DNA of 41,745 nucleotides from a virus, in the IMG/VR virus record IMGVR_UViG_3300046694_000138, positions 1 through 41,745 of that record; one strand, written 5' to 3'. Below are positions 972 to 27,213 of the stretch, one piece after another. A program made the position numbers and the translations under genes. Below the pieces are notes generated by a model that made no database searches, was not told the DNA's origin, and was given only the letters and a program-made list of their open reading frames with translations. Every line of letters starts with the position of its first letter. The stretch's first letter is position 1.

Positions 972-979
972 TTGGAGTC

Positions 980-14026: not shown

Positions 14027-14078
14027 ATGACAGTGTAACAAGAAAACACTTGCAATAGTGATCCTGTATTCGTATCAT
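14027..14078. promoter_or_regulatory. Divergent promoters sharing a palindromic -35 box
   Basis: Rightward: TTGCAA (14050-14055), 17-base spacer, TATCAT (14073-14078), leading to the gene at 14109. Leftward: the same TTGCAA, which is its own complement, then 17 bases and TGTCAT (14032-14027), leading to the late operon starting at 13954. The rightward spacer contains TGATCCTG, part of a motif shared with promoters at 19078, 24453 and 15674. Assignment is by sequence match only. Confidence 0.6.
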
Positions 14079-14108
14079 TTCTCCATGCACTCAACCACGG
14101 AGAACACC

Positions 14109-14477
14109 ATGAGCACGATTACCCCGATCAACGTCACACTGGCCGGCGAATACGCTTTCGACCGCGGATTATCTGAGCGCGAGGCAGCCATCGACGCGGA
14201 CGAGCATCGCGACGAGCTGATCGCGGAGAAGAAAGCCGAATTGGTCGCGCAGCGTGTCGACGCGATGTCGAACGACGACATCATCTGTGCGTTGCAGAGC
14301 GGGTACGCAGAGCACTTCGTCCCGCAGATCCGTTCAGCGCTGAAGGAGAAGAACACCGTGCGCGCGTACGCTGTCCTCTCATCCCTGGTCGAAATCTGGA
14401 TCGGCATCGACAGCGAGATCGAAGCGATCAAATGGATGGAGCGAATGGAGAGCGATGATCACCCTGCCCGCCACTAA
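14109..14477 (+). CDS. Hypothetical early protein
   Basis: Start placed at 14109 (STITPINVTLAGEYAFD) because CGGAG lies 7 bases upstream. The 122 residues are acidic and mostly helical (SEREAAIDADEHRDELIAEKKAELVAQRV, then a hydrophobic AYAVLSSLVEIWIGIDSEIEAIKWMERM). It is a single-gene unit with its own strong promoter and a strong terminator, so it is probably highly or separately expressed. No family is recognised. Confidence 0.72.
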   Translation: MSTITPINVTLAGEYAFDRGLSEREAAIDADEHRDELIAEKKAELVAQRVDAMSNDDIICALQSGYAEHFVPQIRSALKEKNTVRAYAVLSSLVEIWIGIDSEIEAIKWMERMESDDHPARH

Positions 14478-14483
14478 AAGATA

Positions 14484-14508
14484 AAGCCCGCCGAGTAGCG
14501 GGCTTTTT
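14484..14508 (+). terminator. Rho-independent terminator
   Basis: A perfect 8-bp stem AAGCCCGC/GCGGGCTT with a 6-base loop (CGAGTA) is followed by a run of T. It begins seven bases after the stop of the 14109 gene. Confidence 0.92.
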
Positions 14509-14686
14509 GTTGATGTCTTTCCATCAGTCAGGCGCGGGGATCGCCAGTGGCATGCATCTACATCGGAATAAAAGCCGCTCGATCCTTTCGGAGAGCGGGA
14601 AGTGATCTATTGCAGACCACGGAAGGAACCGAGAGTCGCCTCTTGGTGACTAAATTCTATTGAAGTGCGACGATAGCGTCAATCGT
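14509..14686. other. Non-coding gap
   Basis: This gap lies between the terminator and the end of a leftward small gene. I see no gene, clear promoter or strong hairpin here. Confidence 0.5.
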
Positions 14687-14890
14687 TTAGTGACCGGCCA
14701 CCGTATCACTTGCGCCGCCGACGAGCGAGCGTAAGGCGCAGAGCGCTGCCAGGCGCTGTTCTTTGGGGATCGCGCTAACGATTGCGCGAATCATCACAGC
14801 ATCCGTCCATTCATCCGATAAATGCGGTGCCGTCAGGGCGGACAGCGCATTGATGTTCGACTCTTCGGACAGAACTTGCGCACCAGTCAT
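14687..14890 (-). CDS. Hypothetical small protein downstream of the repressor gene
   Basis: The 67 residues include SEESNINALSALTAPHLSDEWTDAVMIRAIVSAIPKEQRLAALCALRSLVGG, with a helical second half. AGGTAGGT lies just upstream of the ATG. A possible leftward promoter TTGCGC-18-TATTGT and a near-perfect palindrome (14942-14964) precede it. It could be a lysogeny gene because it shares strand and neighbourhood with the repressor. Confidence 0.62.
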   Translation of the reverse strand: MTGAQVLSEESNINALSALTAPHLSDEWTDAVMIRAIVSAIPKEQRLAALCALRSLVGGASDTVAGH

Positions 14891-14941
14891 TTTTACCTAC
14901 CTTCGCATATTGTTGGGGACCGCTTTCCTAGAAGCGATACA

Positions 14942-14964
14942 CATACAATAAGCTTTATCGTATG
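14942..14964. promoter_or_regulatory. 23-bp operator-like palindrome
   Basis: Arms CATACAATAA and TTATCGTATG pair at 9 of 10 positions around a 3-base centre. The site lies in the promoter region of the leftward 14687-14890 gene and overlaps the candidate -10. A dimeric regulator site is the likely meaning. Confidence 0.55.
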
Positions 14965-15034
14965 TTCTGCGCAATGATTTTTCGTAGCGAAATGTTGCAA
15001 ACTCGCACCTTGACCCGGCAATTGTTTCTGTAAG

Positions 15035-15048
15035 TTACCGATCGGTAA
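15035..15048. promoter_or_regulatory. Perfect 14-bp palindrome TTACCGATCGGTAA
   Basis: This perfect inverted repeat lies about 50 bases beyond the 3' end of the repressor gene, in the gap 14891-15096 that otherwise holds no convincing gene. It may be an operator for a dimeric regulator. Its role is unknown. Confidence 0.45.
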
Positions 15049-15096
15049 ATCGTGCTGAACTATTTTTGTTCGGCTTGTCAACCGACTGGTAAACCC

Positions 15097-15525
15097 TTAT
15101 TTATTACCGTTATTTTCCACAAGGCTTTCTATCGGCTTTCCTGTGACGATAGCGCCCATTACCTTGATCAGTGCGGCTCGGGTAGCTTCCGGGGATTGCT
15201 GGTACAGGCCGCTGACCGAGTCGAGAAGTGCTGCGAGATCCTCATCTTGCTCTTGGGTCGGCGCGACCTTTGTATGGTCTGTGTCCATCCACCCCGACTG
15301 AAGGCTCAAAGCCTCTTCTATGCGGTTCGCCATCTTGGTACCTATGACCTTGCCATGCTTGTGCTGCGAGGCCGAGATCGGGCTGATACCAAGCTTCTGA
15401 GCGAACCTGCGGAGCATCCCCCGGTCGGGCTCTCCCGGCCAGCTCCGTCGAACCTCTTCCTTGAACTGCTCGAACAGGAAAAGGTAGTTCTCGGTGCGGA
15501 TCTGCTCAATTGTCTTAATCGACAT
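15097..15525 (-). CDS. CI-like phage repressor (helix-turn-helix, no peptidase domain)
   Basis: The 142-residue protein has a DNA-binding helix-turn-helix around RGMLRRFAQKLGISPISASQHKHGKVIGTKMANRIEEAL, in which Arg/Lys-rich recognition residues follow the turn. A C-terminal part of about 60 residues has no visible Ser-Lys autopeptidase motifs, so it is probably not RecA-cleaved like lambda CI. Start taken at the ATG at 15525, six bases after AGGA. It is transcribed leftward, divergent from a Cro-like gene, the classic immunity layout. Its promoter carries the same spacer motif as three rightward promoters. Confidence 0.75.
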   Translation of the reverse strand: MSIKTIEQIRTENYLFLFEQFKEEVRRSWPGEPDRGMLRRFAQKLGISPISASQHKHGKVIGTKMANRIEEALSLQSGWMDTDHTKVAPTQEQDEDLAALLDSVSGLYQQSPEATRAALIKVMGAIVTGKPIESLVENNGNK

Positions 15526-15528
15526 CAC

Positions 15529-15797
15529 GGTTCCTATGTAATCGACGGTCTGAAGAATGGCCGGCGTGCGCTATGCGCTTTCTATTGGCGACTTTCTGCG
15601 TCCTTCGTCCACCCCTGTGGCGCCTCGCTGTATCGCTTAATAACAATACTGAAGGATCAGAATCACTTTTGCAACCTTTAAGCAGGAAAATCCTAGTGTT
15701 ATCCATAACTTATGAAGGATCATTCTACTTCGTCCTTGATGTCTGTTTGGTGAAATGATACGATAGACGCATAACTTCTCAACGGAGGGAGCGCCCC
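15529..15797. promoter_or_regulatory. Lysis-lysogeny control region with divergent promoters and operator repeats
   Basis: Rightward promoter for the Cro-like gene: TTGATG (15736-15741), 17 bases, TACGAT (15759-15764). Leftward repressor promoter: TTGCAA (15674-15669), 17 bases, weak CAGTAT (15651-15646), with TGATTCTG in the spacer. GAAGGATCA occurs twice (15651-15659 and 15714-15722). AGGA-AAA-TCCT forms a small palindrome at 15684-15694. AGGA-type ribosome sites precede both genes. These repeats are candidate repressor and Cro operators. Confidence 0.68.
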
Positions 15798-16046
15798 ATG
15801 ACAGCACAAGAGTTCTACAAGAAATACGGCCGCAAGGTCGTGCGCGAGGTTTGCGAGAAGGTCGGTATCCGCGAGGTGTACTGGAACAACATCAAGAACC
15901 TTCACACGACCGTCAGCGTCCATCGTGCGCTCGAACTGGCGAAGGCCAGCTACGAAGTGACCGGCGATCCGATGACCGTTGTTGACCTTCTCCGTCTGCG
16001 CGATCTGCCGTCGACCATCGTTGGCAGCGCCAGGGGCGATAAGTGA
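15798..16046 (+). CDS. Cro-like DNA-binding protein
   Basis: The 82-residue protein starts 9 bases after a strong GGAGGG site. It has a short helix-turn-helix-like N-terminal half (QEFYKKYGRKVVREVCEKVGIREVYWNNIKN) with LHTTVSVHRALELAKAS following, as in Cro/YdaS-type phage regulators. It is the first gene of the rightward early operon and is divergent from the repressor. The replication gene begins with a GTG overlapping its stop. The Cro role is inferred from position and size. Confidence 0.7.
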   Translation: MTAQEFYKKYGRKVVREVCEKVGIREVYWNNIKNLHTTVSVHRALELAKASYEVTGDPMTVVDLLRLRDLPSTIVGSARGDK

Positions 16047-16816
16047 GCAACGGCCTGTTATTCGACGAACCTATTTTGACGGTCCAACCCGTCGTCGCGA
16101 TGGCGCTCGGCCTGAACGAAGCCATTGCTTTGCAGCAGATCAACTACTGGATGGCGCGAACCAACAACGTCCGCAATGGACGGAAGTGGGTCTACAACAG
16201 CATCGCAGAATGGTCGAAGCAGTTCCCCTTCTGGAGCCCCTCGACGGTCAAGCGCACCTTCGCATCCCTTGAGAGCGCAGGAGTTCTGGTGTCGGATTGC
16301 TTCAATGCCGACAAGCTTGATCACTCAAAGTGGTACTCGATCGACTATGAAAAGTTCGCCGAGATAACAGATCCTGTAATCGCCGCGCGCCGAGCAGACC
16401 TTGAGAAATCGGGCGATACAACGATTGGGTCAAATTGCACCAATCGATTAGGTCAAGCTGACCCAGTGCGTCAGCCCAAGATGACCCAATCTCTATATAG
16501 AACAGAGAATACGTCAGAGATTACTTCAAAAGGCGCGCGTGCCGCGCTTCCTGAATGGCTCGATCCAGATGTATGGGCTGAGTGGGTACAGCACCTCAAG
16601 GAGAAGCGCATCAGGGTAACGCCTAGCAGCGGGAAGAAGGCGATCGAGAGGCTGGCGCGTTATAAAGAGCAGGGGTTCCCTCCGAAGGCCGTCATTGATC
16701 ACTGTATTGCAGGCAACTATCAAGGCCTTTTTCCGCCCAAAAGTGATCCGACTAATGTATCATCTAAGCATCCGAAAAGTCTTAACGACATGGACTACTC
16801 GGCCGATCTTTTCTGA
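16043..16816 (+). CDS. Phage replication initiator (O-like replisome organiser)
   Basis: A GTG start overlaps the TGA of the Cro-like gene. The N-terminal part of the 257-residue protein (LNEAIALQQINYWM, WVYNSIAEWSKQFPFWSPSTVKRTFASLESAGVLV) is a winged-helix domain seen in phage replication proteins that bind the origin. The central part is polar and variable. The C-terminal part (LDPDVWAEWVQHLKEKRIRVTPSSGKKAIERL) resembles the region that contacts helicase loaders. The gene directly precedes a DnaC-type loader. An origin for lytic replication is often inside such a gene, but I see no clear iteron array in it. Confidence 0.8.
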   Translation: MSNGLLFDEPILTVQPVVAMALGLNEAIALQQINYWMARTNNVRNGRKWVYNSIAEWSKQFPFWSPSTVKRTFASLESAGVLVSDCFNADKLDHSKWYSIDYEKFAEITDPVIAARRADLEKSGDTTIGSNCTNRLGQADPVRQPKMTQSLYRTENTSEITSKGARAALPEWLDPDVWAEWVQHLKEKRIRVTPSSGKKAIERLARYKEQGFPPKAVIDHCIAGNYQGLFPPKSDPTNVSSKHPKSLNDMDYSADLF

Positions 16817-16860
16817 CGCGATCTGTAACAAAGTGTTGCTAAAAAACAAAGGAATCGAGA

Positions 16861-17670
16861 ATGAATGCCGTCAATGCATCATTAAGCACTTCCTCCGAAG
16901 AGGGGATGTGCTCAAAACATGGTCAGTTCTACATCCGATCGATCAACCTTGGATGGCGTACTACGGTGCTCGACAAGTGCCCTAAGTGCGTGCGCGAAGA
17001 GTCCGATGCTGAACTCGCTGCTATCGAAGCGAAGGAACGCGCAGAGCGCCAGGCGAAGATCGATGCGCGGCTGAATCAAGCGGGTATCCCTGCTCTCTTC
17101 CGTGATCGCACGTTTGCCAACTACAAATGCAAGACGCAAGCGCAGGAACTAGCTTGGGAGCGGTTCCACAGCTTTGCTGCGAGCTTCCGCAACCATCTGA
17201 AGTCAGGCACCGTGCTTGTCGGCATGGGTAAGGTCGGCACCGGGAAATCTCACCTTGCATGTGCCGTCGCGAACGACGTCATGGCGCGTGGTTATACCGC
17301 GTATTACACGTCGACCGCCCGACTGTTTACCAAGATCCGCGGAACATGGGCGAAGTCGTCCGAGATCAGCGAAGAACAGTTGCTGCGCCAGTTCGAGCAG
17401 ATCGACTTGATGATCCTCGACGAAGTCGGCCTGCAACGTGGCACGGACGACGAACAGCGCACGCTCCACGAGCTGCTAGAGGCTCGCCGGCTGAACTGCA
17501 AGCCCACTATCCTGCTGACGAACCTCGACGGGGCCAATCTCAAGGGCTATCTCGGCGAGCGGTTCCTCGACCGTCTGAGCGAGTCAGGCGTCAGCGTCAA
17601 ATTCGACTGGGAAAGCCACCGCAAGCAATCGCGCGACGTCGGCGGACTCGACAACATGGAGGCCGCGTGA
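16861..17670 (+). CDS. DnaC-like helicase loader ATPase
   Basis: The 269-residue AAA+ protein has a P-loop GKVGTGKSH at about residues 123-131, a Walker B region LMILDEVG and a sensor segment ILLTNLDG, followed by LGERFLDRLSE with the arginine typical of DnaC/IstB loaders. The N-terminus carries a Cys/His cluster (CSKHG and CPKC) that may bind zinc. It loads the host replicative helicase at the origin marked by the upstream initiator. AGGA lies 7 bases before the ATG. Confidence 0.9.
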   Translation: MNAVNASLSTSSEEGMCSKHGQFYIRSINLGWRTTVLDKCPKCVREESDAELAAIEAKERAERQAKIDARLNQAGIPALFRDRTFANYKCKTQAQELAWERFHSFAASFRNHLKSGTVLVGMGKVGTGKSHLACAVANDVMARGYTAYYTSTARLFTKIRGTWAKSSEISEEQLLRQFEQIDLMILDEVGLQRGTDDEQRTLHELLEARRLNCKPTILLTNLDGANLKGYLGERFLDRLSESGVSVKFDWESHRKQSRDVGGLDNMEAA

Positions 17671-18464
17671 CCAGACCATTGATCGTAGTCGCCTACGGCG
17701 GTGGAACCGACTCCACGGCGATGCTGATTGAACTGGTGCGCCAGCAGCGGCCGGTCGACCTAATCCTGTTCGCGGATACGGGCGGAGAGCGTCCGGAAAC
17801 GTATCGCTACATCGACCTTTTTTCAAACTGGCTCGTCGAGCGCGGCTATCCCGAAATCCAGATTGTGCGCAAGGTTCGCAAGACGGGCGAGGTTCACACC
17901 CTAGAGCAGAACTGCCTCGAAGCGAAGATGCTCCCGTCGATCGCCTACGGCTTCAAGTCCTGCTCGCAGAAATTCAAGATTCAGCCGCAGGACAAGTTTT
18001 GCAACAACTGGCAACCTGCGCGCGACGAATGGGCCGCAGGCCGCAAGGTCGTGAAGCTGATCGGATACGACGCAGGCGAGGAGCGCCGCGCGAAGATTCT
18101 GGAGGACGACAAATACACGTTCGAATACCCGCTGATTGCGTGGGGATGGGAGCGCGACGAGTGCATCGCTGCGATCCGCGCGGCCGGCCTGCCGCTACCC
18201 GGCAAGTCTGCCTGTTTCTTCTGCCCTTCCGCGCGCAAGAACGAAATCATGCTGCTGAGGCGCCAACATCCCGACCTCGCTGCGCGCGCTGTCCGCATGG
18301 AACAGAACGCCGAACTCACGACGGTGCAGGGATTGGGGCGACGGTTCGCATGGGGCGACCTGTTCGCCGCTGACGATGCACAAGCAAAGATGTTCCCTGA
18401 AAGCCTGATCGACCAGTCGTGCGGATGCTACGACGGCGAATACGAAGAAATGGAGGCCGCATGA
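17667..18464 (+). CDS. PAPS-reductase-like ATP pyrophosphatase
   Basis: I chose the GTG at 17667, which overlaps the TGA of the loader gene as GTGA. The 265 residues open with IVVAYGGGTDSTAM, the PP-loop (SGGxDS type) that binds and adenylates substrates. Then come FADTGGERPETY and Cys-containing FKSCSQKFK, and a GKSACFFCPSARKNEI motif near residue 185-200. These mark the phage branch of the PAPS reductase/adenine nucleotide alpha-hydrolase family. Sulfate reduction is unlikely in a phage replication operon. Nucleic-acid sulfur modification or use of an ATP-activated intermediate is more plausible, but that is inference. Confidence 0.83.
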   Translation: MTRPLIVVAYGGGTDSTAMLIELVRQQRPVDLILFADTGGERPETYRYIDLFSNWLVERGYPEIQIVRKVRKTGEVHTLEQNCLEAKMLPSIAYGFKSCSQKFKIQPQDKFCNNWQPARDEWAAGRKVVKLIGYDAGEERRAKILEDDKYTFEYPLIAWGWERDECIAAIRAAGLPLPGKSACFFCPSARKNEIMLLRRQHPDLAARAVRMEQNAELTTVQGLGRRFAWGDLFAADDAQAKMFPESLIDQSCGCYDGEYEEMEAA

Positions 18465-18754
18465 GCATGGCAGCAATTACCGCATATCTCGACGACAAGC
18501 CTAACGGCGCGACGCCCGAGGAAATCGCAGAGCATGCCGGACTGTGCATGTACAACATCAGCCGCTCGCTCGGCGTGATGCTCACCCAAGGCCGCGTAGA
18601 GCGCTTAGACGGCGACGAGACGAAGCGCATCGGCTGCGCCTTCCGTCTGGTGAAGATCTACCGCGCGAGCGTCTACAAGGGCGAGGAAACGCTGGCAGCA
18701 ATGCAGGCAGTCTGCCGCGCTCGGCTGATGGGCGAACAGATGGAGGCGGCATGA
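18461..18754 (+). CDS. Small winged-helix protein
   Basis: ATGA overlap with the pyrophosphatase gene indicates coupled translation. The 97 residues contain a winged-helix pattern: AITAYLDDKPNGATPEEIAEHAGLCMYNISRSLGVMLTQGRVERL, followed by a beta-wing. It may bind DNA at a regulatory or repair site. The coupling suggests it works with the upstream enzyme. Confidence 0.72.
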   Translation: MSMAAITAYLDDKPNGATPEEIAEHAGLCMYNISRSLGVMLTQGRVERLDGDETKRIGCAFRLVKIYRASVYKGEETLAAMQAVCRARLMGEQMEAA

Positions 18755-18972
18755 GCAAATACGCAGTAGGCGAGCGCTGGTATTGCGATCGAAGCGTTGG
18801 CGGGAATCCGTACAACAGGCCGCCATTCTATTTCGTGATCGCCGAGGCATCGCGACCGGGATACAAGATGTGCCGCGTTGAAGTCGCGGGGCATCTTGAG
18901 GCGTTCGGGTATGAGTACAGCCACAAGCACCTGAAGAAATACGCCGTCCACGTCCCGAAGGAGGTCGCATGA
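18751..18972 (+). CDS. Hypothetical small protein
   Basis: The 73 residues start with an ATGA overlap to the previous gene. The sequence is beta-rich and aromatic (VGERWYCDRSVGG, PPFYFVIAEASRPGYKMCRVEV), suggesting a small barrel of SH3 type, but no family is recognised. It is the third gene in a run of ATGA-coupled genes. Confidence 0.65.
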   Translation: MSKYAVGERWYCDRSVGGNPYNRPPFYFVIAEASRPGYKMCRVEVAGHLEAFGYEYSHKHLKKYAVHVPKEVA

Positions 18973-19073
18973 GCCCAGCTCTCGCGTATTGGATGTTCTT
19001 TCAAGTAATGGCGCGCGCCTGGTTCCCGGCGCCGAAGCCGGATGTGGCAGAACGCACGAAAAATATCCAATAA
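18969..19073 (+). CDS. Tiny coupled open reading frame
   Basis: The frame encodes 34 residues beginning SPALAYWMFFQVMARAWFPAP, moderately hydrophobic. The ATGA overlap with the upstream gene is the main support. It ends 4 bases before the -35 box of the next promoter. Confidence 0.45.
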   Translation: MSPALAYWMFFQVMARAWFPAPKPDVAERTKNIQ

Positions 19074-19077
19074 ACGC

Positions 19078-19106
19078 TTGCACTACTGATACTGTTGTCG
19101 TATTCT
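19078..19106 (+). promoter_or_regulatory. Early promoter with shared operator-like spacer
   Basis: TTGCAC (19078-19083), a 17-base spacer containing ACTGATACTGT, then TATTCT (19101-19106). It drives the gene at 19150. The spacer motif recurs at 14050 and 24453 and, on the other strand, at 15674. Confidence 0.72.
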
Positions 19107-19149
19107 TTAGTCACAGCAGCACACAACCACAACGGAAGGAAAGGAAACC

Positions 19150-19539
19150 ATGAACACGCTGAACCAAGCAGGCAAAGGCTTATTACGCACTCTGACCAGC
19201 TTCCGCCCGCAACAAGCGCCTGTTGCGCGCAAAAATTTGTCCGCGATTGATCCGACAGTTGGTAGCATTCCCGCAGCGGTTTTCATGACCGAACTGCGCA
19301 AGGCCGGCGACGAGCACATCTGCCCGATCGCCGAGCTGATCGAGATCCACAAGCAATCGCAGATCGCCGAGAAGGCTGCGGACATGTACGCCCTTCTGAT
19401 GAACCTGGACCTGGAATGGCCGGTGTTCGCTGCCAAGTATCCCGAAGCCGCCGCTGATGGCTGGCTCGCCCTCCTTGTGAACCGTGCGCGCGTCCTGCGC
19501 GATCAGATCGACGAAATCAGCCATGCGAACCGTAATTGA
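19150..19539 (+). CDS. Hypothetical early protein
   Basis: The 129 residues have a basic N-terminus (GLLRTLTSFRPQQAPVARKNL) and a helical acidic remainder (AELIEIHKQSQIAEKAADMYALLMNLDLEWPVFAAKYPE, WLALLVNRARVLRDQIDEI). GGAAGGAAAGGAAA precedes the ATG, a very strong ribosome site. It is first in the recombination operon. No family is recognised. Confidence 0.72.
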   Translation: MNTLNQAGKGLLRTLTSFRPQQAPVARKNLSAIDPTVGSIPAAVFMTELRKAGDEHICPIAELIEIHKQSQIAEKAADMYALLMNLDLEWPVFAAKYPEAAADGWLALLVNRARVLRDQIDEISHANRN

Positions 19540-19615
19540 GACGTTGATCGCGGCTGTCCTGACGCTCGGCTATGGAGCGTGGGCGGCAGCGCAAGACCTC
19601 GGGGTCTGGCAATGA
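19523..19615 (+). CDS. Tiny membrane or signal-type peptide
   Basis: The frame encodes 30 residues: RTVIETLIAAVLTLGYGAWAA, then a short tail. It overlaps the previous gene by 17 bases and its stop overlaps the next ATG. One hydrophobic helix is visible. Such short membrane peptides are common in phage early operons. Support is modest. Confidence 0.45.
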   Translation: MRTVIETLIAAVLTLGYGAWAAAQDLGVWQ

Positions 19616-19881
19616 CAGACGGCGCCGAGTGGCAACAGCAGATCGAATCCGAAGAACACGAGCAACACGAACTGGAGCGACACCATGAGAACAAGCGAGA
19701 GCATCGACAAACTGGCATCTGCGCTTCTGAAAGCGCAACAAGCGATCCGTTTTGCAGCGAAGGACTCGAAGAACCCGCATTTCAAAAACTCGTATGCGGA
19801 TCTGGAGTCGGTGATCGACGCGATCAAGGCGCCGCTGAACGACAACGGGATCGTGTTCCTTCAGTCGCCCTCGCCTTCTGA
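19612..19881 (+). CDS. Possible small charged protein overlapping the ERF gene
   Basis: ATGA coupling to the previous tiny gene supports the start. The first 29 residues are a plausible charged helix (TDGAEWQQQIESEEHEQHELER). The remaining 60 residues are only the out-of-frame reading of the ERF gene and look random, so the protein, if made, may matter mainly as a coupling leader. Confidence 0.3.
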   Translation: MTDGAEWQQQIESEEHEQHELERHHENKREHRQTGICASESATSDPFCSEGLEEPAFQKLVCGSGVGDRRDQGAAERQRDRVPSVALAF

Positions 19882-20317
19882 CGACGGGAAGCTGCACCTG
19901 ACGACGCGCCTGATGCACGAGTCGGGTCAGTGGATGGAGGATACGGCCGTCGCACCGCTGCCGAAGCAAGACCCGCAAGGATTCGGCTCGACGCTGACCT
20001 ACCTGCGCCGCTACAGCCTGTCGGCAGTGACCGGGCTCTACCAGGCAGACGACGACGGTAACGCGGGCTCTGGCGTCGGCGCAAAGCCGGAAGCGAAACC
20101 CGCCCAACCGGCGCAGCAGGGGAACGTGATGGAGGACAGCGACCTCAAGCGTCATATCGCAGAAATCAACAAGTCCGATGACATCGACACGCTAAAGAAG
20201 CGCTTCGCCGTCGCATATCAAGCTGCGCAGAACAGCCATGACAAGGTGGCGGCAGAAATCATCACCGAAGCAAAAGACAACCGTAAGAAGCAACTCTCCG
20301 AACCCGCCACTGCATAA
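19685..20317 (+). CDS. erf: ERF-family single-strand annealing recombinase
   Basis: The 210-residue protein has the ERF core at residues about 8-130: SALLKAQQAIRFAAKDSKNPHFKNSYADLESV, NDNGIVFLQSP, LTTRLMHESGQWMED and the diagnostic DPQGFGSTLTYLRRYSL leading to ADDDGNAG. ERF proteins anneal single strands and in P22 circularise the incoming genome. That role would suit a plasmid-state prophage. A Pro/Ala/Gln linker leads to a helical tail. GGAG lies 8 bases before the ATG. Confidence 0.93.
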   Translation: MRTSESIDKLASALLKAQQAIRFAAKDSKNPHFKNSYADLESVIDAIKAPLNDNGIVFLQSPSPSDDGKLHLTTRLMHESGQWMEDTAVAPLPKQDPQGFGSTLTYLRRYSLSAVTGLYQADDDGNAGSGVGAKPEAKPAQPAQQGNVMEDSDLKRHIAEINKSDDIDTLKKRFAVAYQAAQNSHDKVAAEIITEAKDNRKKQLSEPATA

Positions 20318-20325
20318 GGAAAGAC

Positions 20326-20571
20326 ATGGCATACGACAACACGAACCGCGGCACGCTCGGCAAGAACCAGCGCAAAGAGAAAGACACGCATCCCGAGTAC
20401 GCCGGAAAGATCAACGTAGCAGGCGTCGACTACTGGCTCTCGGCGTGGGTCAAGGAAGGCCCGACGGGCAAGTTCTTCAGCTTGTCAGTGCGCCCGAAGG
20501 ACGAGCAGAAGTCGGGCGTTCCGGCGCCGGCCAATGATCAGTTCCTCGACGATGACTTGCCGCCCTTCTGA
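20326..20571 (+). CDS. Small ssDNA-binding-type protein with an SSB-like acidic tip
   Basis: The 81 residues include KINVAGVDYWLSAWVKEGPTGKFFSLSVRPKDE, an OB-like beta stretch, and end FLDDDLPPF. That ending imitates the C-terminal tip of bacterial SSB (DDDIPF), which recruits repair and replication enzymes. It follows ERF by 8 bases. A single-strand binding helper or a decoy for SSB partners fits. The fold assignment is tentative. Confidence 0.7.
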   Translation: MAYDNTNRGTLGKNQRKEKDTHPEYAGKINVAGVDYWLSAWVKEGPTGKFFSLSVRPKDEQKSGVPAPANDQFLDDDLPPF

Positions 20572-20622
20572 TCGAACAACAACCGCGCCGCTGGCCTAGC
20601 TGGCGGCGCACAGGGGAAAGCA

Positions 20623-20859
20623 ATGAACGCATTAACAGCTTGGTTCCCGAAGCACATCACACCGGCTCACGTCGGCGCATACGAAGTAAGGCTGCGACAG
20701 AACGGCATTCTAGTGAAGTGGTATTCGTGGTGGACGGGCTCACGTTGGAGCCGCACCGCACTGACGCCGGAAGGCGCCGAGTCTTGCAAACATCACATTA
20801 GCGCGCTCGCCATCACGAACGAGGGCTTCGAGTGGCGCGGCACAACCGAGGAGCAATGA
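20623..20859 (+). CDS. Hypothetical protein
   Basis: The 78 residues are tryptophan-rich (AWFPKHITPAHVGAYEVRL, ILVKWYSWWTGSRWSRTAL) with predicted beta strands. GGGGAAAGCA precedes the ATG. Similar short Trp-rich proteins are common in phage early regions. No function is assigned. Confidence 0.68.
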   Translation: MNALTAWFPKHITPAHVGAYEVRLRQNGILVKWYSWWTGSRWSRTALTPEGAESCKHHISALAITNEGFEWRGTTEEQ

Positions 20860-20860
20860 C

Positions 20861-21097
20861 ATGAACAAGACAAACTTAGTCGCAGACATCGACAGCGCAG
20901 CAGCTCGTGCGCAAGCCTTTGAACACGTTCCCGTTACCGTCGTACCACTCGACATAATCCGTGAGCAGATCCGCAGCGCAGAGTACGACATCGCGGAAGC
21001 GACCATGCGGCGCGACATGCTGCGCCTGGTGCTCGATCTGCGCGAGCAGGACGAACTGCAGCGCACGCGCAAGATCCTGTCCGGCTTTTTGAACTAA
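20861..21097 (+). CDS. Hypothetical helical protein
   Basis: The 78 residues include a long helix (IIREQIRSAEYDIAEATMRRDMLRLVLDLREQDELQRTRKIL). It starts one base after the stop of the preceding gene, and the GAGGAG upstream lies inside that gene. No family is recognised. Confidence 0.68.
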   Translation: MNKTNLVADIDSAAARAQAFEHVPVTVVPLDIIREQIRSAEYDIAEATMRRDMLRLVLDLREQDELQRTRKILSGFLN

Positions 21098-21112
21098 GCG
21101 CCAGAGGCCAAG

Positions 21113-21649
21113 ATGAGCAAAGAATTGCCAAGTAGGGAGTACGTCGCAAGCCTGCTGGCCTATGACGCAGAAACAGGCGAGTTTCGGTGGCTTAAGTCAA
21201 GGCAGGGGATTCGAGCCGGGAAAGCTGTTGGGTCCATTCAAACCTTTGGGTACCGGCAAATCACGATTGACCGTAGGCAATACCTGGCGCATCGCATTGC
21301 TTGGCTGCTTACTTACGGCAAATGGCCAGACGGAGTCATTGACCATATAAACGGCGATGGGGACGATAACAGAATTTCGAATCTGCGCGCATGCACGCAA
21401 TCAGAAAATCTGCAAAACACGAAGATCGGAATCAGAAATACGACGGGGATTAAGGGCGTCTCCTGGGATAAAAGCAAAAAAGCTTGGCGATCTGCGGTCA
21501 TGATCAAGGGCCGTTCCGTGTGGGCGGGCTACCACCAGAGCATTGACGATGCGACGCGCGCTGTCATGGAACTTAGAGAAAGACTGCACGGCGAGTTTGC
21601 GAATCATGGCGGCATCAAACTCGATGCAATAGCGGGCGACATCCAATAG
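21113..21649 (+). CDS. HNH homing endonuclease with AP2-like DNA-binding domain
   Basis: In this 178-residue protein the HNH_3 core at about residues 57-100 reads LAHRIAWLLTYGKWPDGVIDHINGDGDDNRISNLR. The AP2-like segment follows as NTTGIKGVSWDKSKKAWRSAVM, ending in RLHGEFANHGG. The pattern closely parallels the 11020-11520 enzyme on the other strand (CHGEFACHG), so the two may share recent ancestry. It interrupts the early operon between a small helical protein and the Gp157 gene. Confidence 0.92.
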   Translation: MSKELPSREYVASLLAYDAETGEFRWLKSRQGIRAGKAVGSIQTFGYRQITIDRRQYLAHRIAWLLTYGKWPDGVIDHINGDGDDNRISNLRACTQSENLQNTKIGIRNTTGIKGVSWDKSKKAWRSAVMIKGRSVWAGYHQSIDDATRAVMELRERLHGEFANHGGIKLDAIAGDIQ

Positions 21650-21668
21650 ATAAATTTTATGCAGAAAT

Positions 21669-21689
21669 GATCCATTAGATGGATCTTTT
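21669..21689 (+). terminator. Short hairpin with T-run after the HNH gene
   Basis: A perfect 7-bp stem GATCCAT/ATGGATC has a 3-base loop (TAG) and is followed by TTTT. It is a weak terminator or an operator. A TATAAA-like -10 at about 21710 suggests that transcription restarts before the Gp157 gene. Confidence 0.5.
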
Positions 21690-21739
21690 GGCTGTAGTAT
21701 CTATAAACCGATGCAGTGAACGGATAACAAGGAACCGAA

Positions 21740-22234
21740 ATGAACGCGCCTCTGTACCAACTAACCGGGGAATTGCTCGCAATCCGCAATGACCTGATGG
21801 ACGCAGGATTCGACGATACGACGATCGAGGACACGCTGGAAGGCTGCGCCGAGGACTTCGACAACAAGGCTGTCGGCTGCGCCCTGATCTCGCGCGAGCT
21901 GGGCGCAAACGCGAAGATGATCCGCGACGCTGCGGCAGAACTCGTCGAGCGCGCACGCAAGATCGAAGCACGCTCCGAGCGCCTGGCGGGATACCTGCAA
22001 ACGAACATGAAAGCCGCGCAACGCCTTCGCATTGAAAACCCATTCGTGACGATTGCCCTGCGCGAAGGCCGCGATGAGTCGGTCGAGATTGAGGATGGCG
22101 TCGAACTCGCCGCGCGTTTCTGCCGCGTCAAGCATGAGCCGAACAAGACCGCAATGAAGGTTGCACTGAAAGCCGGCGTTGAAATTCCCGGCGTTCGCTT
22201 GGTCGTCAAAGACCGCCTCGAAATCCGCGTTTAA
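21740..22234 (+). CDS. Gp157-family phage protein
   Basis: The 164 residues match the siphovirus Gp157 family plan. The N-terminal helix (YQLTGELLAIRNDLMDAGFDDTTIEDTLEG) and the central LISRELGANAKMIRDAAAELVERARKIEARSERLAGYLQTNMKAA form a helical array. A C-terminal beta part reads PFVTIALREG and VKHEPNKTAMKVALKAGVEIPGVRLVVKDRLEIR. The family is linked to phage recombination modules and one member was associated with phage resistance in Streptococcus. AAGGA lies upstream of the ATG. Confidence 0.88.
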   Translation: MNAPLYQLTGELLAIRNDLMDAGFDDTTIEDTLEGCAEDFDNKAVGCALISRELGANAKMIRDAAAELVERARKIEARSERLAGYLQTNMKAAQRLRIENPFVTIALREGRDESVEIEDGVELAARFCRVKHEPNKTAMKVALKAGVEIPGVRLVVKDRLEIRV

Positions 22235-22247
22235 CCAGAGAACCGCC

Positions 22248-22379
22248 ATGTCCACCTCGATCACCGTTTTATCTGGCGGCTATATGGAAATCGCCTGCAT
22301 CGATCCTTGGCTCGCTCCCCTGCTGCGCCACTACGTGATCCGCAGAACGGTGGACTACTCGCGCGTCTGCTGGTGCTGA
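22248..22379 (+). CDS. Hypothetical 43-residue protein
   Basis: The frame begins STSITVLSGGYMEIACIDPWLAPLLRHYV and ends VCWC. A weak AGAGAA site precedes the ATG. The gene fills the gap between the Gp157 gene and the next small gene without overlap. No family is recognised. Confidence 0.5.
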   Translation: MSTSITVLSGGYMEIACIDPWLAPLLRHYVIRRTVDYSRVCWC

Positions 22380-22380
22380 C

Positions 22381-22557
22381 ATGACGGCCGCCGAATGTCT
22401 CGCCAGCTTCATGCAGGCGGTACGTGACGGCCGCCGCGGCGAATATGGTGCCGCTAGGGCGATCGTCGAACGGGTTAGAGGCGCAGGCGGCGATCAGGCA
22501 GCAGAGATCGCAAAGAAAGAACTTTGGTCCTTTATAAAATCAGACCGTAAAGCATGA
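22381..22557 (+). CDS. Hypothetical 58-residue protein
   Basis: The helical sequence includes AAECLASFMQAVRDGRRGEYGAARAIVERV and AAEIAKKELWSFIKSD. It starts one base after the upstream stop, and its own stop overlaps the ATG of the nuclease gene (ATGA), consistent with coupled translation. Confidence 0.58.
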   Translation: MTAAECLASFMQAVRDGRRGEYGAARAIVERVRGAGGDQAAEIAKKELWSFIKSDRKA

Positions 22558-22844
22558 AATACGCAGCCAAAGCAGACCGCAATCAGCCTGAAGTCGTTGC
22601 AGCGTTACGCAAGATCGGCGCGAAGGTTGTCCCGACTCACACAGTCGGACAAGGGTTCCCCGATCTCATCGTCGAATACGGCGGCCGCACGTTTCTGCTT
22701 GAGATAAAGGACGGCGAAAAGCCGCCGAGCGCTCGAAAACTGACGCCGGCGCAGGAAGAATTTCACGCGGCATGGACCGGCGAGATCCATGTCGTCGATT
22801 CGATCGAGCAAGCGATCGCCGTCACGCGAGGGATGGCGTCATGA
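22554..22844 (+). CDS. VRR-NUC family nuclease
   Basis: The 96-residue PD-(D/E)XK nuclease has an N-terminal helix with glutamate (QPEVVAALRKIGAKVV), then GFPDLIVEYGGRTFLLEIKDG, where the Asp and the Glu-x-Lys form the catalytic set. LTPAQEEFHAAW completes the family. Stand-alone phage VRR-NUC proteins act on branched DNA and can stand in for RusA-type resolvases. It lies in the recombination block before NinB. Confidence 0.88.
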   Translation: MKYAAKADRNQPEVVAALRKIGAKVVPTHTVGQGFPDLIVEYGGRTFLLEIKDGEKPPSARKLTPAQEEFHAAWTGEIHVVDSIEQAIAVTRGMAS

Positions 22845-23257
22845 GCGATAAGGTCACGATCTTCCTCAACCGCAGCAACCGCCGCATGGCGGCCGACGCC
22901 GTACACAGCCGGCCAGACGGCCATGTGCTGATCCTTCAGGAATCGACGCGCAGCCTGCCGCAGAACGCCCTGCTGCATCACCTGTTCGGCATCGCCGCCA
23001 AGCACGCCACTTTCCAGAACCGTCGCCTCACCGCTCAACAGTGGAAGGTTCTTTTTGTCAGCGGCCATGCGATCGCAACCGGCATCGGTGCGGACATGGT
23101 TCCGGGGCTCGAAGGCGAGTTCGTGAATATCCGCGAATCGAGCGCGCAAATGGGCGTCCGACGCATGAACAGCCTGATCGAGTACGTGACGGCATATCTA
23201 ACCATCAACGGCATTCCCATGAGTGCCCCGCCAGGCTACGAGGGGTTGGCAGCATGA
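22841..23257 (+). CDS. NinB-like recombination protein
   Basis: The ATG overlaps the previous stop (ATGA). The 138 residues show the NinB/Orf pattern: RSLPQNALLHHLFGIAAKHATFQNRRLTAQQWKVLFVSGHAIATG near the middle and MNSLIEYVTAYLTINGIPMSAPP at the end. Lambda NinB (Orf) is a recombination mediator that binds ssDNA and SSB and can replace RecFOR functions. This fits with ERF and the SSB-tail protein upstream. Confidence 0.87.
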   Translation: MSDKVTIFLNRSNRRMAADAVHSRPDGHVLILQESTRSLPQNALLHHLFGIAAKHATFQNRRLTAQQWKVLFVSGHAIATGIGADMVPGLEGEFVNIRESSAQMGVRRMNSLIEYVTAYLTINGIPMSAPPGYEGLAA

Positions 23258-23667
23258 GAGGAAGCCCCAAAGACCCGAACAGCCCGCGCTACCAGAACAG
23301 GCGTCTCATCGTCGAACTGTTGCAGAAAGAGCCCGCGACCCTTCAGCAGATCGCGGCCGCGATGGGTATGTCAGTCAGCGGCGTGCGCAAGCACATCAGC
23401 AACCTGCACACGGCCACGCCGAAGCAAGTCTATATCTGCGGCTGGAATCAGCGCGTCGGCGGGCGCGGCGGCGATGGTGCTGCGCCGATCTATTGCGCCG
23501 GCAGCAAGCGCGATGTCGAGTTCGACAAAAAGCGCGCTCGGCTGGATTCCTCGACGCGTTACCGAACAAAGTTTCACGGCCTGCTGCTTGCCAAGGCAGC
23601 GGTTAAACGCGGCACGTTCAACCCCTTCTGGCAGCTCACCGCAGCCACATCGGAGGCCGCTCGATGA
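23254..23667 (+). CDS. Winged-helix DNA-binding protein
   Basis: The ATG is coupled to the NinB stop (ATGA). The first 55 of 137 residues form a helix-turn-helix (NRRLIVELLQKEPATLQQIAAAMGMSVSGVRKHISNLHTATPKQVYICGW), like ArsR/MarR-type small regulators. The remainder is basic (RDVEFDKKRARLDSSTRYRTKFHG). Probably an early regulator or an accessory of the recombination block. Confidence 0.75.
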   Translation: MRGSPKDPNSPRYQNRRLIVELLQKEPATLQQIAAAMGMSVSGVRKHISNLHTATPKQVYICGWNQRVGGRGGDGAAPIYCAGSKRDVEFDKKRARLDSSTRYRTKFHGLLLAKAAVKRGTFNPFWQLTAATSEAAR

Positions 23668-24074
23668 AGCGCTCCGCACCGATGAAGCGCACCGGGTTCA
23701 AGCGCCCGGAGCCCAAGCCGTTCGCACTGGCCGATCGCAAGACGACACTGCGCCGCCGAGCCAAGAAGCCGACCGTCGAAGAAGGCTCAAAGTATCTGGC
23801 GGCCTGCCGCGGCGAGACGTGCTATCTGCGCGAGATATGCCTCGGCGAAGCCTCTCCTGACATCGTTGTGCCCTGCCACAGCAACCAGAGCAAGCACGGC
23901 AAAGGCGGCGCCAAGAAGGCCGAGCATGTCTACACGGTGCCCGGCTGCTACTGGTGCCACACCTGGCTCGATCAAGGATCTGCGCCGCGCGAAGAAAAGT
24001 TCGCGGCATGGGATCGCGCATACGAAAACTGGGCGCCGGTTCGCGCTCGCAAGATGGATAAGGAAGCAGCATGA
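23664..24074 (+). CDS. DUF1364-type phage nuclease-like protein
   Basis: The 136-residue protein is ATGA-coupled. The basic N-terminus (MKRSAPMKRTGFKRPEP) is followed by the family core LAACRGETCYLREICLG, VVPCHSNQSKHGKGGAKKAEH and PGCYWCHTWLDQG. The Cys and His residues likely bind zinc in an HNH-like treble-clef fold. Members sit in the nin-like region of lambdoid phages beside NinB and resolvases. Confidence 0.83.
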   Translation: MKRSAPMKRTGFKRPEPKPFALADRKTTLRRRAKKPTVEEGSKYLAACRGETCYLREICLGEASPDIVVPCHSNQSKHGKGGAKKAEHVYTVPGCYWCHTWLDQGSAPREEKFAAWDRAYENWAPVRARKMDKEAA

Positions 24075-24439
24075 AAAATATCGCCTTCGTCGCCAACCGC
24101 CAGCCGGAAACCGTATCGCATGACGAGCTGATCGCTGCGATGGAAGAGAATCGCGAGTACACGCAAGACCAAGTAATGGCGCTGCTCTCCGATCGTCCGC
24201 GCGCTTCCGTGCGCGATACCCTCCACTCTCTCGTCGACCGCGGAATCGTGTGGCGCGAGAACCGCACGAAAAACGATTCGCGCGTCCGCTATACCCTGCT
24301 CGAAGGCGAGGCTCTCCGGGATGCCATCGACCGCAAGACGACGCGCGGCGAAACACCCGCATGGATGCAAGCCGACCTGATCGGATACGAAGCGACGAAC
24401 AAGCGTCATCAGGCGCTTTGCATGCTCGTTCGCAGATAG
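24071..24439 (+). CDS. Winged-helix protein
   Basis: The 122-residue protein is ATGA-coupled. The core HDELIAAMEENREYTQDQVMALLSDRPRASVRDTLHSLVDRGIVWRENRTKNDSRVRYTLL is a clear winged helix with a beta wing. The C-terminus (GYEATNKRHQALCMLVR) is short. A late-operon activator or an early regulator is possible. It is last in the run before the next promoter. Confidence 0.77.
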   Translation: MKNIAFVANRQPETVSHDELIAAMEENREYTQDQVMALLSDRPRASVRDTLHSLVDRGIVWRENRTKNDSRVRYTLLEGEALRDAIDRKTTRGETPAWMQADLIGYEATNKRHQALCMLVRR

Positions 24440-24452
24440 TCAATTTTTCCGC

Positions 24453-24481
24453 TTGCACAATTGATACTGTAGATGTAGTAT
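24453..24481 (+). promoter_or_regulatory. Early promoter with shared operator-like spacer
   Basis: TTGCAC (24453-24458), 17 bases containing TTGATACTGT, then TAGTAT (24476-24481). It drives the operon starting at 24533. The spacer matches those of the 14050 and 19078 promoters. Confidence 0.72.
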
Positions 24482-24532
24482 TACTCCCATAGCAGGATCA
24501 TTCAAATAACAACCAACCGGAAGGAACCGAAA

Positions 24533-24979
24533 ATGCACACCAATGACCATTTTTTATTACCTCGCTGCACCGGCATGAACTGCGGTGCGACGGACGCGAA
24601 CCATTCGCCCGAGTGCCGCGCTGAACATGCAGCGGCTATCGCTGGCGGACGGTTCGTGAAAGACGAAAAACGCGCGGCAGACGATGCGGAGCGGGATGCA
24701 CTGGTGATCGCTGAGGCCGCGCTTGCGGATATAGGCGACGCGGAGCGCGAGCCGGGCGATGACCTTGCATGGTGCGAGCGACGAGCCGCACAAGCGCTTC
24801 CCGCAGTGCGAGCAGCACTGTCAGCCCGAGCCGATGGCGGCAAGGATTTGCTAGCCAGGGTCGAAGAAGTCTACCGGCACATTCTCAAGCAAAACGGTCA
24901 AGCCGCACGAAGGACCACGCCTGAAAATATCTGCGACGTGTTTGAAGCTATCGCCGCCATTGCAGGAGAGAAGAAATGA
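24533..24979 (+). CDS. Hypothetical protein
   Basis: The first part of this 148-residue protein has a Cys/His cluster (PRCTGMNCGATDANHSPECRAEH) that may bind a metal. The rest is acidic and helical (DDAERDALVIAEAALADIGDAERE, LARVEEVYRHILKQNGQAARR). GGAAGGAACCGAAA precedes the ATG. No family is recognised. Confidence 0.72.
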   Translation: MHTNDHFLLPRCTGMNCGATDANHSPECRAEHAAAIAGGRFVKDEKRAADDAERDALVIAEAALADIGDAEREPGDDLAWCERRAAQALPAVRAALSARADGGKDLLARVEEVYRHILKQNGQAARRTTPENICDVFEAIAAIAGEKK

Positions 24980-25362
24980 CAGACGCAGAATGGATCGAAT
25001 CCTTCGAAAGCAAGCAAGGCATGGGCGCCTGCATTGTTGAAGGGCAGGAAATTGCTGCCGTGGTTCGCGCATTGGAAGCAGCACGCCGCACTGTGAGTGG
25101 GCAGGAGGCAAAGCCGATCTATCAGGCTCGGTCCATCAATTCAGTGACCTGGACCGACCAGAGCAAAGACGGGTACGACCACATGGCGAAATACCCGATG
25201 TGCTTTGAAGTGCGTATCGTCTACGCCGCCCCCATTCCCGCAACGGAACTGATGGTCGAGGAGATCGCGCAGATATTCGATCAATACGCAATCGGAACGG
25301 TATTGCCTGCGCAGTCGGCGGCGCAAATCATTCGGGCAGCAATCAAGAAGGAGCCGAAATAA
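24976..25362 (+). CDS. Hypothetical protein
   Basis: The 128-residue protein is ATGA-coupled to the previous gene. It shows TDAEWIESFESKQGMGACIVEGQEIAAVVRALEAARR and VEEIAQIFDQYAIGTVLPAQSAAQIIRAAIKKEPK. Similar small acidic proteins are frequent in phage early operons. No function is assigned. Confidence 0.7.
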   Translation: MTDAEWIESFESKQGMGACIVEGQEIAAVVRALEAARRTVSGQEAKPIYQARSINSVTWTDQSKDGYDHMAKYPMCFEVRIVYAAPIPATELMVEEIAQIFDQYAIGTVLPAQSAAQIIRAAIKKEPK

Positions 25363-25874
25363 TGGCCGGCAATAAGAAACCGAACCGAAAGCCGCGCAAG
25401 TTAATCGAGCCGAAGAACCACGTCATGTATTTGTATGACGCCGACGCGCCGATGCAGGGCGAAGAACGGCTCGAAGTGCTGACGTCGGTTCACATGGCCG
25501 CCCTCGCCCTCTCGCGCGGCGAAGGAGCCAAGAACGAATGGGATGTGATCGTAATCGCCATGAACGTGGCGATCGTCCTGTGTGAGTCGGCGGGAAACCG
25601 CGAGATCGGCCTGCGCGCTCTCTACGACACGCAGAACGCCATGATCGACGTCTGCGAACGATTCCAGGCGCGCTGTAACTTCGTCCTGACCGGCGAGGAA
25701 CTGAAAGCGATGAATGGGGGGATTCATGTATTCGAGCAACTGGTCGCCACGGTGAGCAGGCGCCAGTACGTGCGCGCGTGCGCCGAATACACCAAGCGCC
25801 TAAACGCGGGTAAGGCTGTGCAGATCCGCAAAGGTAAGCAGACAGAGAGGTTCGCGCTGAGGGAGGCAGCGTGA
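25362..25874 (+). CDS. Hypothetical phage protein
   Basis: The 170-residue protein starts on the last base of the previous gene. It has a basic N-terminus (KKPNRKPRKLIEPKNHVMYLY), a helical middle (VHMAALALSRGEGAKNEWDVIVIAMNVAIVLCESAGN) and a basic C-terminus. Proteins of this layout occur in several proteobacterial prophages and plasmids without known role. It ends just before the partition-type repeat array. Confidence 0.72.
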   Translation: MAGNKKPNRKPRKLIEPKNHVMYLYDADAPMQGEERLEVLTSVHMAALALSRGEGAKNEWDVIVIAMNVAIVLCESAGNREIGLRALYDTQNAMIDVCERFQARCNFVLTGEELKAMNGGIHVFEQLVATVSRRQYVRACAEYTKRLNAGKAVQIRKGKQTERFALREAA

Positions 25875-25875
25875 T

Positions 25876-25927
25876 AGCCGTATGGACGTATGGAAGGCCA
25901 TCTAGCTACCCATACGTCCATACGCCT
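25876..25927. repeat. Heptamer inverted/direct repeat array (candidate partition site or parA operator)
   Basis: Arms 25876-25893 and 25910-25927 pair at 17 of 18 positions around a 16-base spacer. Each arm contains CGTATGG twice, separated by one base, so the site has four heptamers: two direct and two inverted. This is the kind of array bound by ribbon-helix-helix partition partners. It lies just upstream of the parA promoter and could act as the centromere, the operator, or both. It can also fold as a hairpin ending the previous operon. Confidence 0.68.
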
Positions 25928-25938
25928 TAATGTGTCAC

Positions 25939-25967
25939 TTGAACTTCTGCCCGACGGGCGCTACTCT
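25939..25967 (+). promoter_or_regulatory. parA promoter
   Basis: TTGAAC (25939-25944), 17-base spacer, TACTCT (25962-25967). It starts 11 bases after the heptamer array, so a protein bound there could repress it. GGAGGG precedes the parA ATG. Confidence 0.62.
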
Positions 25968-25993
25968 TCCGGGAAACATAAACCGGAGGGAGC

Positions 25994-26647
25994 ATGAGTA
26001 TCATCGCAGTTGTGATGCAGAAGGGAGGGGTTGGCAAGACGACAACCGCGACCAACCTAGCCGGCGCGCTTGCGTCGCGCGGCGCCAGTGTGCGTCTATA
26101 CGACGCGAACCCGTATCAGAGCAGCGCGTACCAATGGGGCCAAGTCCGCATTGGATCGGGCGTTGCGCACAATCTGAGCGTCGTTCGGGCCGATCAGAAC
26201 TATGGACACGCCATCGAGGCGGACGCGCCGAACTTCGATCACATCGTCATCGACTGCCCGCCAGACCTTCGCATCGAGACGCGCGTCGCAATGGGCGTCG
26301 CTGATGTGATCGTCGTCCCCCTGCGCATCGGCCAGTTCGACGTTTGGAGCCTTGCGCAGACCGCGCAGATAGTGAGAGAGAGGAGGGCGACGCTAACCGC
26401 ACCAGTGCGCGCTATCGCCTTCGTGAACGCAGTTCCACATTACATCAAGTCCGAGCTCGACGAGTCGATCGATGTTATTCGGGAAATGAGCGATGACTTC
26501 GAGCTCGGGCCGACGCTGGTAGACCGCGCAGCGTATCGGAAGGGTTCGAAGCTCGGGCTGTCAGTGCTGGAATTGCCGCCTGAATATCGGGACGGGAAAG
26601 CAAGCGACGAGTTCGAAATGTTGATCGAGGAGGTGTGCCGTGGCTAA
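25994..26647 (+). CDS. parA: ParA-family partition ATPase
   Basis: The 217-residue protein has the deviant Walker A KGGVGKTT at residues 10-17, with the signature first lysine of ParA/MinD ATPases. A'-region residues are LYDANPYQSS, and a Walker B-like HIVIDCPP follows, then VIVVPLRIGQFDVWSL. Its size matches small ParA (type Ib) proteins that pair with ribbon-helix-helix partners instead of ParB. It would segregate the plasmid prophage at cell division. The stop overlaps the partner gene by 8 bases. Confidence 0.93.
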   Translation: MSIIAVVMQKGGVGKTTTATNLAGALASRGASVRLYDANPYQSSAYQWGQVRIGSGVAHNLSVVRADQNYGHAIEADAPNFDHIVIDCPPDLRIETRVAMGVADVIVVPLRIGQFDVWSLAQTAQIVRERRATLTAPVRAIAFVNAVPHYIKSELDESIDVIREMSDDFELGPTLVDRAAYRKGSKLGLSVLELPPEYRDGKASDEFEMLIEEVCRG

Positions 26648-26915
26648 TCCCCCGCTGAACCGCAGTGCAATCGATGCTTTCGCCGGCGCGCCCGCTTCAG
26701 AACCTGCCCCAAAGCCTGCAAGTGTCACCCCTGTGCGCGATGCGCGGCCGATGTTTCGCGAGCGCGATGCAACGCAGAAAATGACGGTCAACATGCCGAA
26801 AGACCTGTACGAGGAATTGCGCGCGTACATGAAACTGACTGATGTGCCGATGTCTGAAGTGTTGGTCGAAGGTGCGCGGCGCGAGCTGGCGAGGCTTCGG
26901 AAGCAGGAAGGATAG
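26640..26915 (+). CDS. Ribbon-helix-helix partition partner
   Basis: A GTG start overlaps the parA end. In this 91-residue protein a flexible Pro/Ala-rich N-terminus (DAFAGAPASEPAPKPAS) and a basic middle (VRDARPMFRERDATQ) precede the ribbon-helix-helix fold: QKMTVNMPKDLYEELRAYMKLTDVPMSEVLVEGARREL. Type Ib partners such as ParG use an unstructured N-terminus to stimulate ParA and the fold to bind heptamer-type arrays. The 25876-25927 array is the likely target. Confidence 0.85.
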   Translation: MANPPLNRSAIDAFAGAPASEPAPKPASVTPVRDARPMFRERDATQKMTVNMPKDLYEELRAYMKLTDVPMSEVLVEGARRELARLRKQEG

Positions 26916-26935
26916 GGCGTCGATCATCCCCGCAT

Positions 26936-27052: not shown

Positions 27053-27114
27053 GAAGAACCTGAGAGACAGATCAAGAGGAAATTGGCCGAAGAGCCATAT
27101 CCCATATAGAGCCC

Positions 27115-27164: not shown

Positions 27165-27213
27165 CTAGTTGGTGTACTCTACGGTCCAGTCATTAACGAA
27201 CCGTGAGGCGGAT

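Follow-up and report, generated by a model that had tools for sequence, protein, structure and literature searches.

Genome region and shared promoter motif

The viral genome analysed here (IMG/VR record IMGVR_UViG_3300046694_000138, positions 1 to 41,745; the full 41,745 nt are referred to as the window) carries a divergent pair of regulatory genes: a CI-like repressor of 142 amino acids at 15097–15525 on the minus strand and a Cro-like helix-turn-helix (HTH) protein of 82 amino acids at 15798–16046 on the plus strand. Four promoters share a motif between their -35 and -10 boxes, and this motif is the subject of the present analysis as part of a candidate operator. Three of them are dispersed and face rightward on the plus strand: a left promoter at 14050–14078 (TTGCAA-N17-TATCAT), a middle promoter at 19078–19106 (TTGCAC-N17-TATTCT) and a right promoter at 24453–24481 (TTGCAC-N17-TAGTAT). 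The fourth is that of the repressor gene itself, at 15646–15674 on the minus strand (TTGCAA-N17-CAGTAT).

A sequence-only reading of the window had described these promoters as TTGCA(A/C), a 17-base spacer and TGATnCTG at spacer positions 4–11, and this was borne out. The combined pattern TTGCAMNNNTGATNCTG matched four places in the window and no more, at 14050, 19078 and 24453 on the plus strand and at 15674 on the minus strand, against a mean of 0.01 in dinucleotide shuffles, none of which reached four, and the spacer measured 17 bases in 4/4 sites. In a scan of the whole genome with a matrix derived from these four promoters, they scored 36–42 and the next-best place 18, and because of this gap they form a discrete class. 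The -10 boxes given above were read by eye, and the one at 15674 is poor. A consensus promoter scan, which listed 14050 alone of the four sites and fewer promoters than in shuffles, was given no weight.

A symmetric element over the -10 box

The shared spacer motif is the left arm of a 19-bp inverted repeat, RATMC-N7-GKATY, which begins between the two promoter boxes and reaches with its right arm over the -10 box. TGATMC followed by seven bases and GKATCA was perfect in the left promoter (14059–14077, TGATCC-N7-GTATCA), imperfect in the middle (19087–19105) and right (24462–24480) promoters, and absent from the repressor promoter at 15665. In the window together with ten relatives (11 records), RATMC and GKATY pairs counted at gaps from 0 to 19 numbered 34 at gap 7 and 0–13 elsewhere; because of this peak, the sequence shared by the spacers forms one half of a predicted symmetric protein-binding site. 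TGATnCTG as the shared unit was accordingly right in its TGATMC and covered only half of the element.

Allowing at most one mismatch, TNATMC-N7-GKATNA matched nine sites in the window against 1.7 expected, of which those at 17761 and 37097 are probably background. Beyond the four sites, dyads of the same type were found at 14690, 15737, 15756, 16744, 21668 and 24482, all given here on the plus strand. Two of these abut in the promoter of the cro-like gene (pR): predicted operator 1 (15737–15755, TGATGT-N7-GTGAAA) lies over the -35 box and spacer and is recognisable in all clades but the most distant, and predicted operator 2 (15756–15774, TGATAC-N7-GCATAA) overlaps the -10 box. The second perfect dyad of the window, TGATCC-N7-GTATCA at 16744–16762, lies away from any promoter, towards the 3' end of the O/DnaD-like replication gene and with no TTG at promoter distance. 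The dyad at 21668–21686 (TGATCC-N7-GGATCT), upstream of the gene at 21740, had one mismatch, and a terminator hairpin is an alternative reading there; those at 15756, 19087, 24462 and 24482 were weaker. Candidate operators were also recognised at 14690–14708 (GTGACC-N7-GTATCA, with one good arm), covering the final codons of gene 14687–14890, which runs leftward, and at 24482–24500 (TACTCC-N7-GGATCA), just 3' of the right promoter and 20 bp from its first dyad. A tandem site like 24462/24482 was present in the related record G002 at 20766/20786.

A weak dyad at 35257–35275 (TGATCCAGTAGTTGCTTCA, minus strand), located between the coat gene and the gene upstream of it, is probably due to chance. 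It has two mismatches, three such sites are expected in the window, and it was left as background.

Conservation in relatives

Searches of IMG/VR returned 26 loci for the repressor (49–99% identity) and 43 loci for the protein encoded at 19150, and gene order was conserved across the relatives. In the annotated phage collection, no close relative was found by nucleotide or protein search and the 19150 protein had no match. The repressor had no match among plasmids and one, at 32%, in bacterial genomes.

Sequences upstream of the 19150 orthologues were aligned by gene homology, the motif not being used. In 21 distinct sequences, ATAC in the spacer and GTA in the -10 box were invariant, while most other spacer letters varied. 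When 14 complete or partial, unannotated virus records were scanned for TTG at a fixed distance from the dyad, exact or one-mismatch sites were obtained in 13 of them, with 0–2 per record for the reversed pattern used as control. The promoter-plus-dyad form occurred two to three times per record in 11 records, always co-oriented, vs. 0.0045 per shuffled genome. Long records typically held three co-oriented promoter-dyads about 4–6 kb apart (14050/19078/24453 in the window, 24121/30294/36226 in G004 and 2923/8873/15683 in G006). G011, which has the most distant repressor (49%), gave one weak promoter-dyad match only.

A dyad scan of the clade with 57% repressor identity placed about eight or nine sites on each genome, in syntenic positions. 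They comprise the left, 19150 and right promoters and pR, together with a divergent left site, one close to the 3' end of the 14687 orthologue, one at the end of the O gene and one ahead of 21740. The counterparts there were CAAAAC-N7-GTATTA for the 14690 site, TAATAC-N7-GCTTTA for 21668, and an abutting pair, GGATAC-N7-GCTTTA and TAATAC-N7-GCCTTA, at pR. In the site at the end of O, close relatives whose O genes differ kept both arms and changed the seven central bases (TGATCCGACTAATGTATCA, TGATCCAATGGTAGGATCT, TGATCCAGTGGTAGTATCC). What the sequences show directly is that the dyads exist, are conserved, hold a fixed place within promoters and have half-sites that differ by clade. Conservation of the motif in relatives had been named beforehand as decisive for the first reading; the dyad architecture recurs, but the trailing CTG of TGATnCTG is not kept.

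One IMG/VR contig, 3300046474_000206, carries a copy of the 19150 gene with its operator promoter at each end (L059, L063); the copies differ slightly from each other and are probably an assembly overlap of strain variants.

The likeness among the promoters might also have arisen by descent, through duplication of one strong promoter (-35 box, spacer and -10 box) to which no regulator binds. TTGC and the -10 box are indeed common to the sites, and recombination can spread promoters. Yet the dyads outside promoters have the arms without TTG, flanks and central N7 differ freely, and half-sites shift jointly across positions within a clade. Moreover, the left-arm bases belong to no promoter element and are nevertheless invariant across divergent orthologues. 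Duplication is therefore considered very improbable and was rejected on the non-promoter dyads and the invariant left arms.

The promoter of the repressor gene

The repressor promoter carries TGATTCTG, and there is no right arm at 15665. Its motif was identical in only some of the closest relatives and was changed to TTGCATTTACGATTCTG in L006–L008 (96–97% group). Elsewhere the element was altered (ACGATTCTG) or absent, and in the 70% and 57% groups the motif was gone and TTGC kept. The 15674 site is probably not an operator of the dyad class, and autorepression through its motif is not supported, because the second arm is missing and the element is not conserved in relatives. The sequence-only reading had taken spacer sharing to suggest an operator at all four promoters, through which the repressor would coordinate three dispersed units and its own gene. 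For the repressor gene this is not supported. It is supported for the three dispersed promoters, where the dyad over the -10 box is conserved and clade-dependent, and dyads of the same type recur at pR. With dyads in three dispersed, co-oriented units plus pR, the predicted regulon is wider than a pL/pR pair, as that reading had expected.

Candidate binding proteins

The 15097–15525 protein matched PHROG transcriptional repressor/regulator profiles and showed 30% identity to annotated CI, among distant relatives only. Its model places the recognition helix of the HTH at about residues 50–57, and there is no peptidase domain. The nearest solved fold was Rep of Salmonella phage SPC32H (PDB 5d50), a weak match (E about 0.02) at 20–24% identity, and sequence searches against solved structures gave nothing useful. 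Since a LexA-type peptidase domain would not fit into the repressor, RecA-stimulated self-cleavage seems an unlikely route of induction. The AF2 model of the Cro-like protein gave weak XRE-type HTH fold matches and was most like YdaS (weak fold match, E 0.08).

At half-site position 2, 23 G and 5 A were counted in the window and the 70% clades, and 3 G and 15 A in the 57% clade (Fisher p 1.5e-5, the sites having been picked by synteny and by eye and those within one clade not being independent). Residues 49–50 of the repressor are SP in the window and the 70% groups and DQ in the 57% group; a 53% record has SQ, and its half-sites carry both letters (G and A). This covariation is compatible with contact by the CI-like protein.

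It is rather improbable that the dyads are instead read mainly by the Cro-like protein (15798–16046), acting as a lytic repressor in the later shut-down of early units, with CI confined to the vicinity of pR. In favour of this, the gene for this small HTH protein of XRE-like fold lies at pR, and in most clades its allele varies together with the dyad. In L009, however, CI is 97% and the Cro-like protein 67% identical, and the 19150 operator is unchanged from that of the window; CI is therefore favoured over Cro as the reader. In the phage-plasmid phiKO2, furthermore, the prophage repressor binds all operators and Cro just one (PMC4997575).

Reading of the dyads by a host regulator, LexA or another global factor, was given little credence. 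Host control of phage promoters is common, and a repressor without a cleavage domain needs some other induction input. Against this, no CTGT-N8-ACAG match of the LexA type was seen by inspection, half-site differences between phage clades follow those of the phage repressor, and the dyad is present at the phage's own pR.

Prophage type

The window encodes P22-like virion proteins (coat, portal and stabilisation proteins), with the large terminase beside them, and the genes for RepL and ParA lie 3' of the third dispersed promoter. No tyrosine integrase was found in the window (serine integrases were not searched for). Phage structural genes thus stand together with plasmid replication and partition genes. 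Because RepL and ParA are present and a tyrosine integrase was not found, the phage is probably a temperate, P22-like phage-plasmid, its extrachromosomal state being predicted from its genes. The RepL-family protein (27172–27684) was above the cut-off in the window only, in 0/14 related records, with a short, weakly matching stretch in G001 and G003.

The ends of the window (1–1101 and 40645–41745) overlap imperfectly, with 1021/1101 bases identical at an offset of 40644, which resembles a circular or circularly permuted genome of ~40.6 kb in which reads of a slightly different strain were used for closure. An O-acetyltransferase gene adjoining RepL (27717–29183) is a possible lysogenic-conversion gene that may alter the host surface. 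A protein with an aspartyl/asparaginyl beta-hydroxylase domain is encoded at 36518–37141, on the opposite strand within the late region.

A tyrosine integrase is encoded in two of the relatives that have a related repressor (G002 at 17044–17526 and G011 at 5939–6421), and by this evidence the predicted lifestyles of the group are mixed, with plasmid-like and integrating members. Because G002, with its integrase and no ParA match, keeps the dyads, the operator network may outlive changes of prophage maintenance.

The same comparison bears on whether the dyads could be dispersed ParB/parS or replication sites of a plasmid prophage, located in promoters incidentally. The centromere sites of N15 are dispersed, ParA and RepL are encoded in the window, and the dyads at 16744 and 14690 lie outside promoters. 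On the other side, besides G002, the ParA proteins of G001 and G003 are just 28% identical and the same dyads are kept, and RepL was above its cut-off in the window only. The ParB-site reading was rejected on the persistence of the dyads in G002, and partition or replication sites together are held to be extremely improbable.

A proposed dispersed operator network

The dyads are best explained, with a probability of roughly 0.75, as dispersed operators of the small CI-like repressor, which would silence several units in a P22-like probable phage-plasmid in the manner of P1 C1. The ligand would most likely be the 15097–15525 protein, and the Cro-like protein possibly shares its sites. A repressor dimer on the spacer and -10 box would exclude RNA polymerase. 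In the lysogen, pR would be silenced through its two abutting dyads, and with it the replication genes (O/DnaC), as would the left unit (14050) and the recombination unit (19078). The latter promoter is predicted to drive unit 2 (19150–20571, plus strand), made up of the gene 19150–19539, to which no function could be assigned, an Erf-like annealing protein (19685–20317) and the gene 20326–20571. The right promoter would likewise be silenced towards unit 3 (24533–27684, plus strand), which comprises genes of unknown function at 24533–25874, ParA (25994–26647), a small partner (26640–26915) and RepL. The dyads within gene ends may, by conjecture, provide extra silencing or serve as roadblock or decoy sites. 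From these patterns we infer which protein binds, that it represses, how far each transcript extends and what the intragenic sites may do.

Several points weigh against this interpretation. The evidence is all comparative, with binding and expression deduced from it; the arms at 19087 (GTATTC), 24462 (GTAGTA), 14690, 24482 and 15737 are poor; and the fold-search E-values, 0.02 for CI and 0.08 for the Cro-like protein, are weak. The clade trend at position 2 rests on few independent events, and in most relatives the CI and Cro alleles travel together, so that either or both could read the operator. Repression of a unit that includes ParA would also be unexpected in a plasmid prophage, unless ParA is transcribed from a promoter of its own or basal expression suffices.

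A more far-reaching version, which we regard as unlikely, is that of a symmetric-dyad network of promoter operators and conserved intragenic roadblocks that stays fixed while members swap plasmid and integrated life, the lytic units being silenced genome-wide regardless of maintenance.

Comparison with known systems

C1 of phage P1 acts through 22 dispersed operators and has RepL under its control, repressing the RepL replicon through Op53 (PMC8546580, PMC9948254). As in P1, one predicted repressor would act on many candidate operators that are spread over the genome and overlap promoters, and RepL of the window lies 3' of a promoter with such a site. The P1 operator, however, is an asymmetric 17-mer, ATTGCTCTAATAAATTT (PMC8546580), whereas the window sites are 19-bp inverted repeats of another consensus, and the window phage combines virion genes of the P22 type with a divergent, lambda-like CI/Cro pair.

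The stoperators of mycobacteriophage L5/cluster A Rep are 13-bp asymmetric sites, up to 30 per genome (PMC6550527). They share with the window sites a dispersed placement in and outside promoters and a consensus that varies with the repressor clade. L5 sites are asymmetric, mostly outside promoters and in one orientation with transcription; those of the window are symmetric dyads, about nine per genome and mostly promoter-linked. For the block of transcription elongation that bound repressor exerts at L5 stoperators, 16744 and 14690 are the candidate sites.

In the telomere phages N15/phiKO2, the prophage repressor controls both the early genes and plasmid replication, and in these and lambda-type phages five to six operators are confined to OR and OL (PMC4997575). 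The window has the lambda-type arrangement in its gene order, pR dyads and HTH folds, with divergent repressor and Cro-like genes and tandem predicted operators between them. Its sites differ in spanning about 10 kb and three promoters outside the switch, with dyads also at 14059, 16744, 19087, 21668 and 24462. As a working analogue P1 C1 comes nearest, and for sites outside promoters L5 does, the operator type being unlike both.

These data describe a sequence-defined, predicted regulon of about nine operators in a phage family absent from the searched annotated phage collection. Few repressors with dispersed operators have been documented (P1, L5), and this would be a dyad-based addition to them. 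Since the half-site changes with the repressor from clade to clade at fixed site positions, the phage group may offer a natural series for the coevolution of a repressor with its scattered operators and for the splitting of immunity groups.

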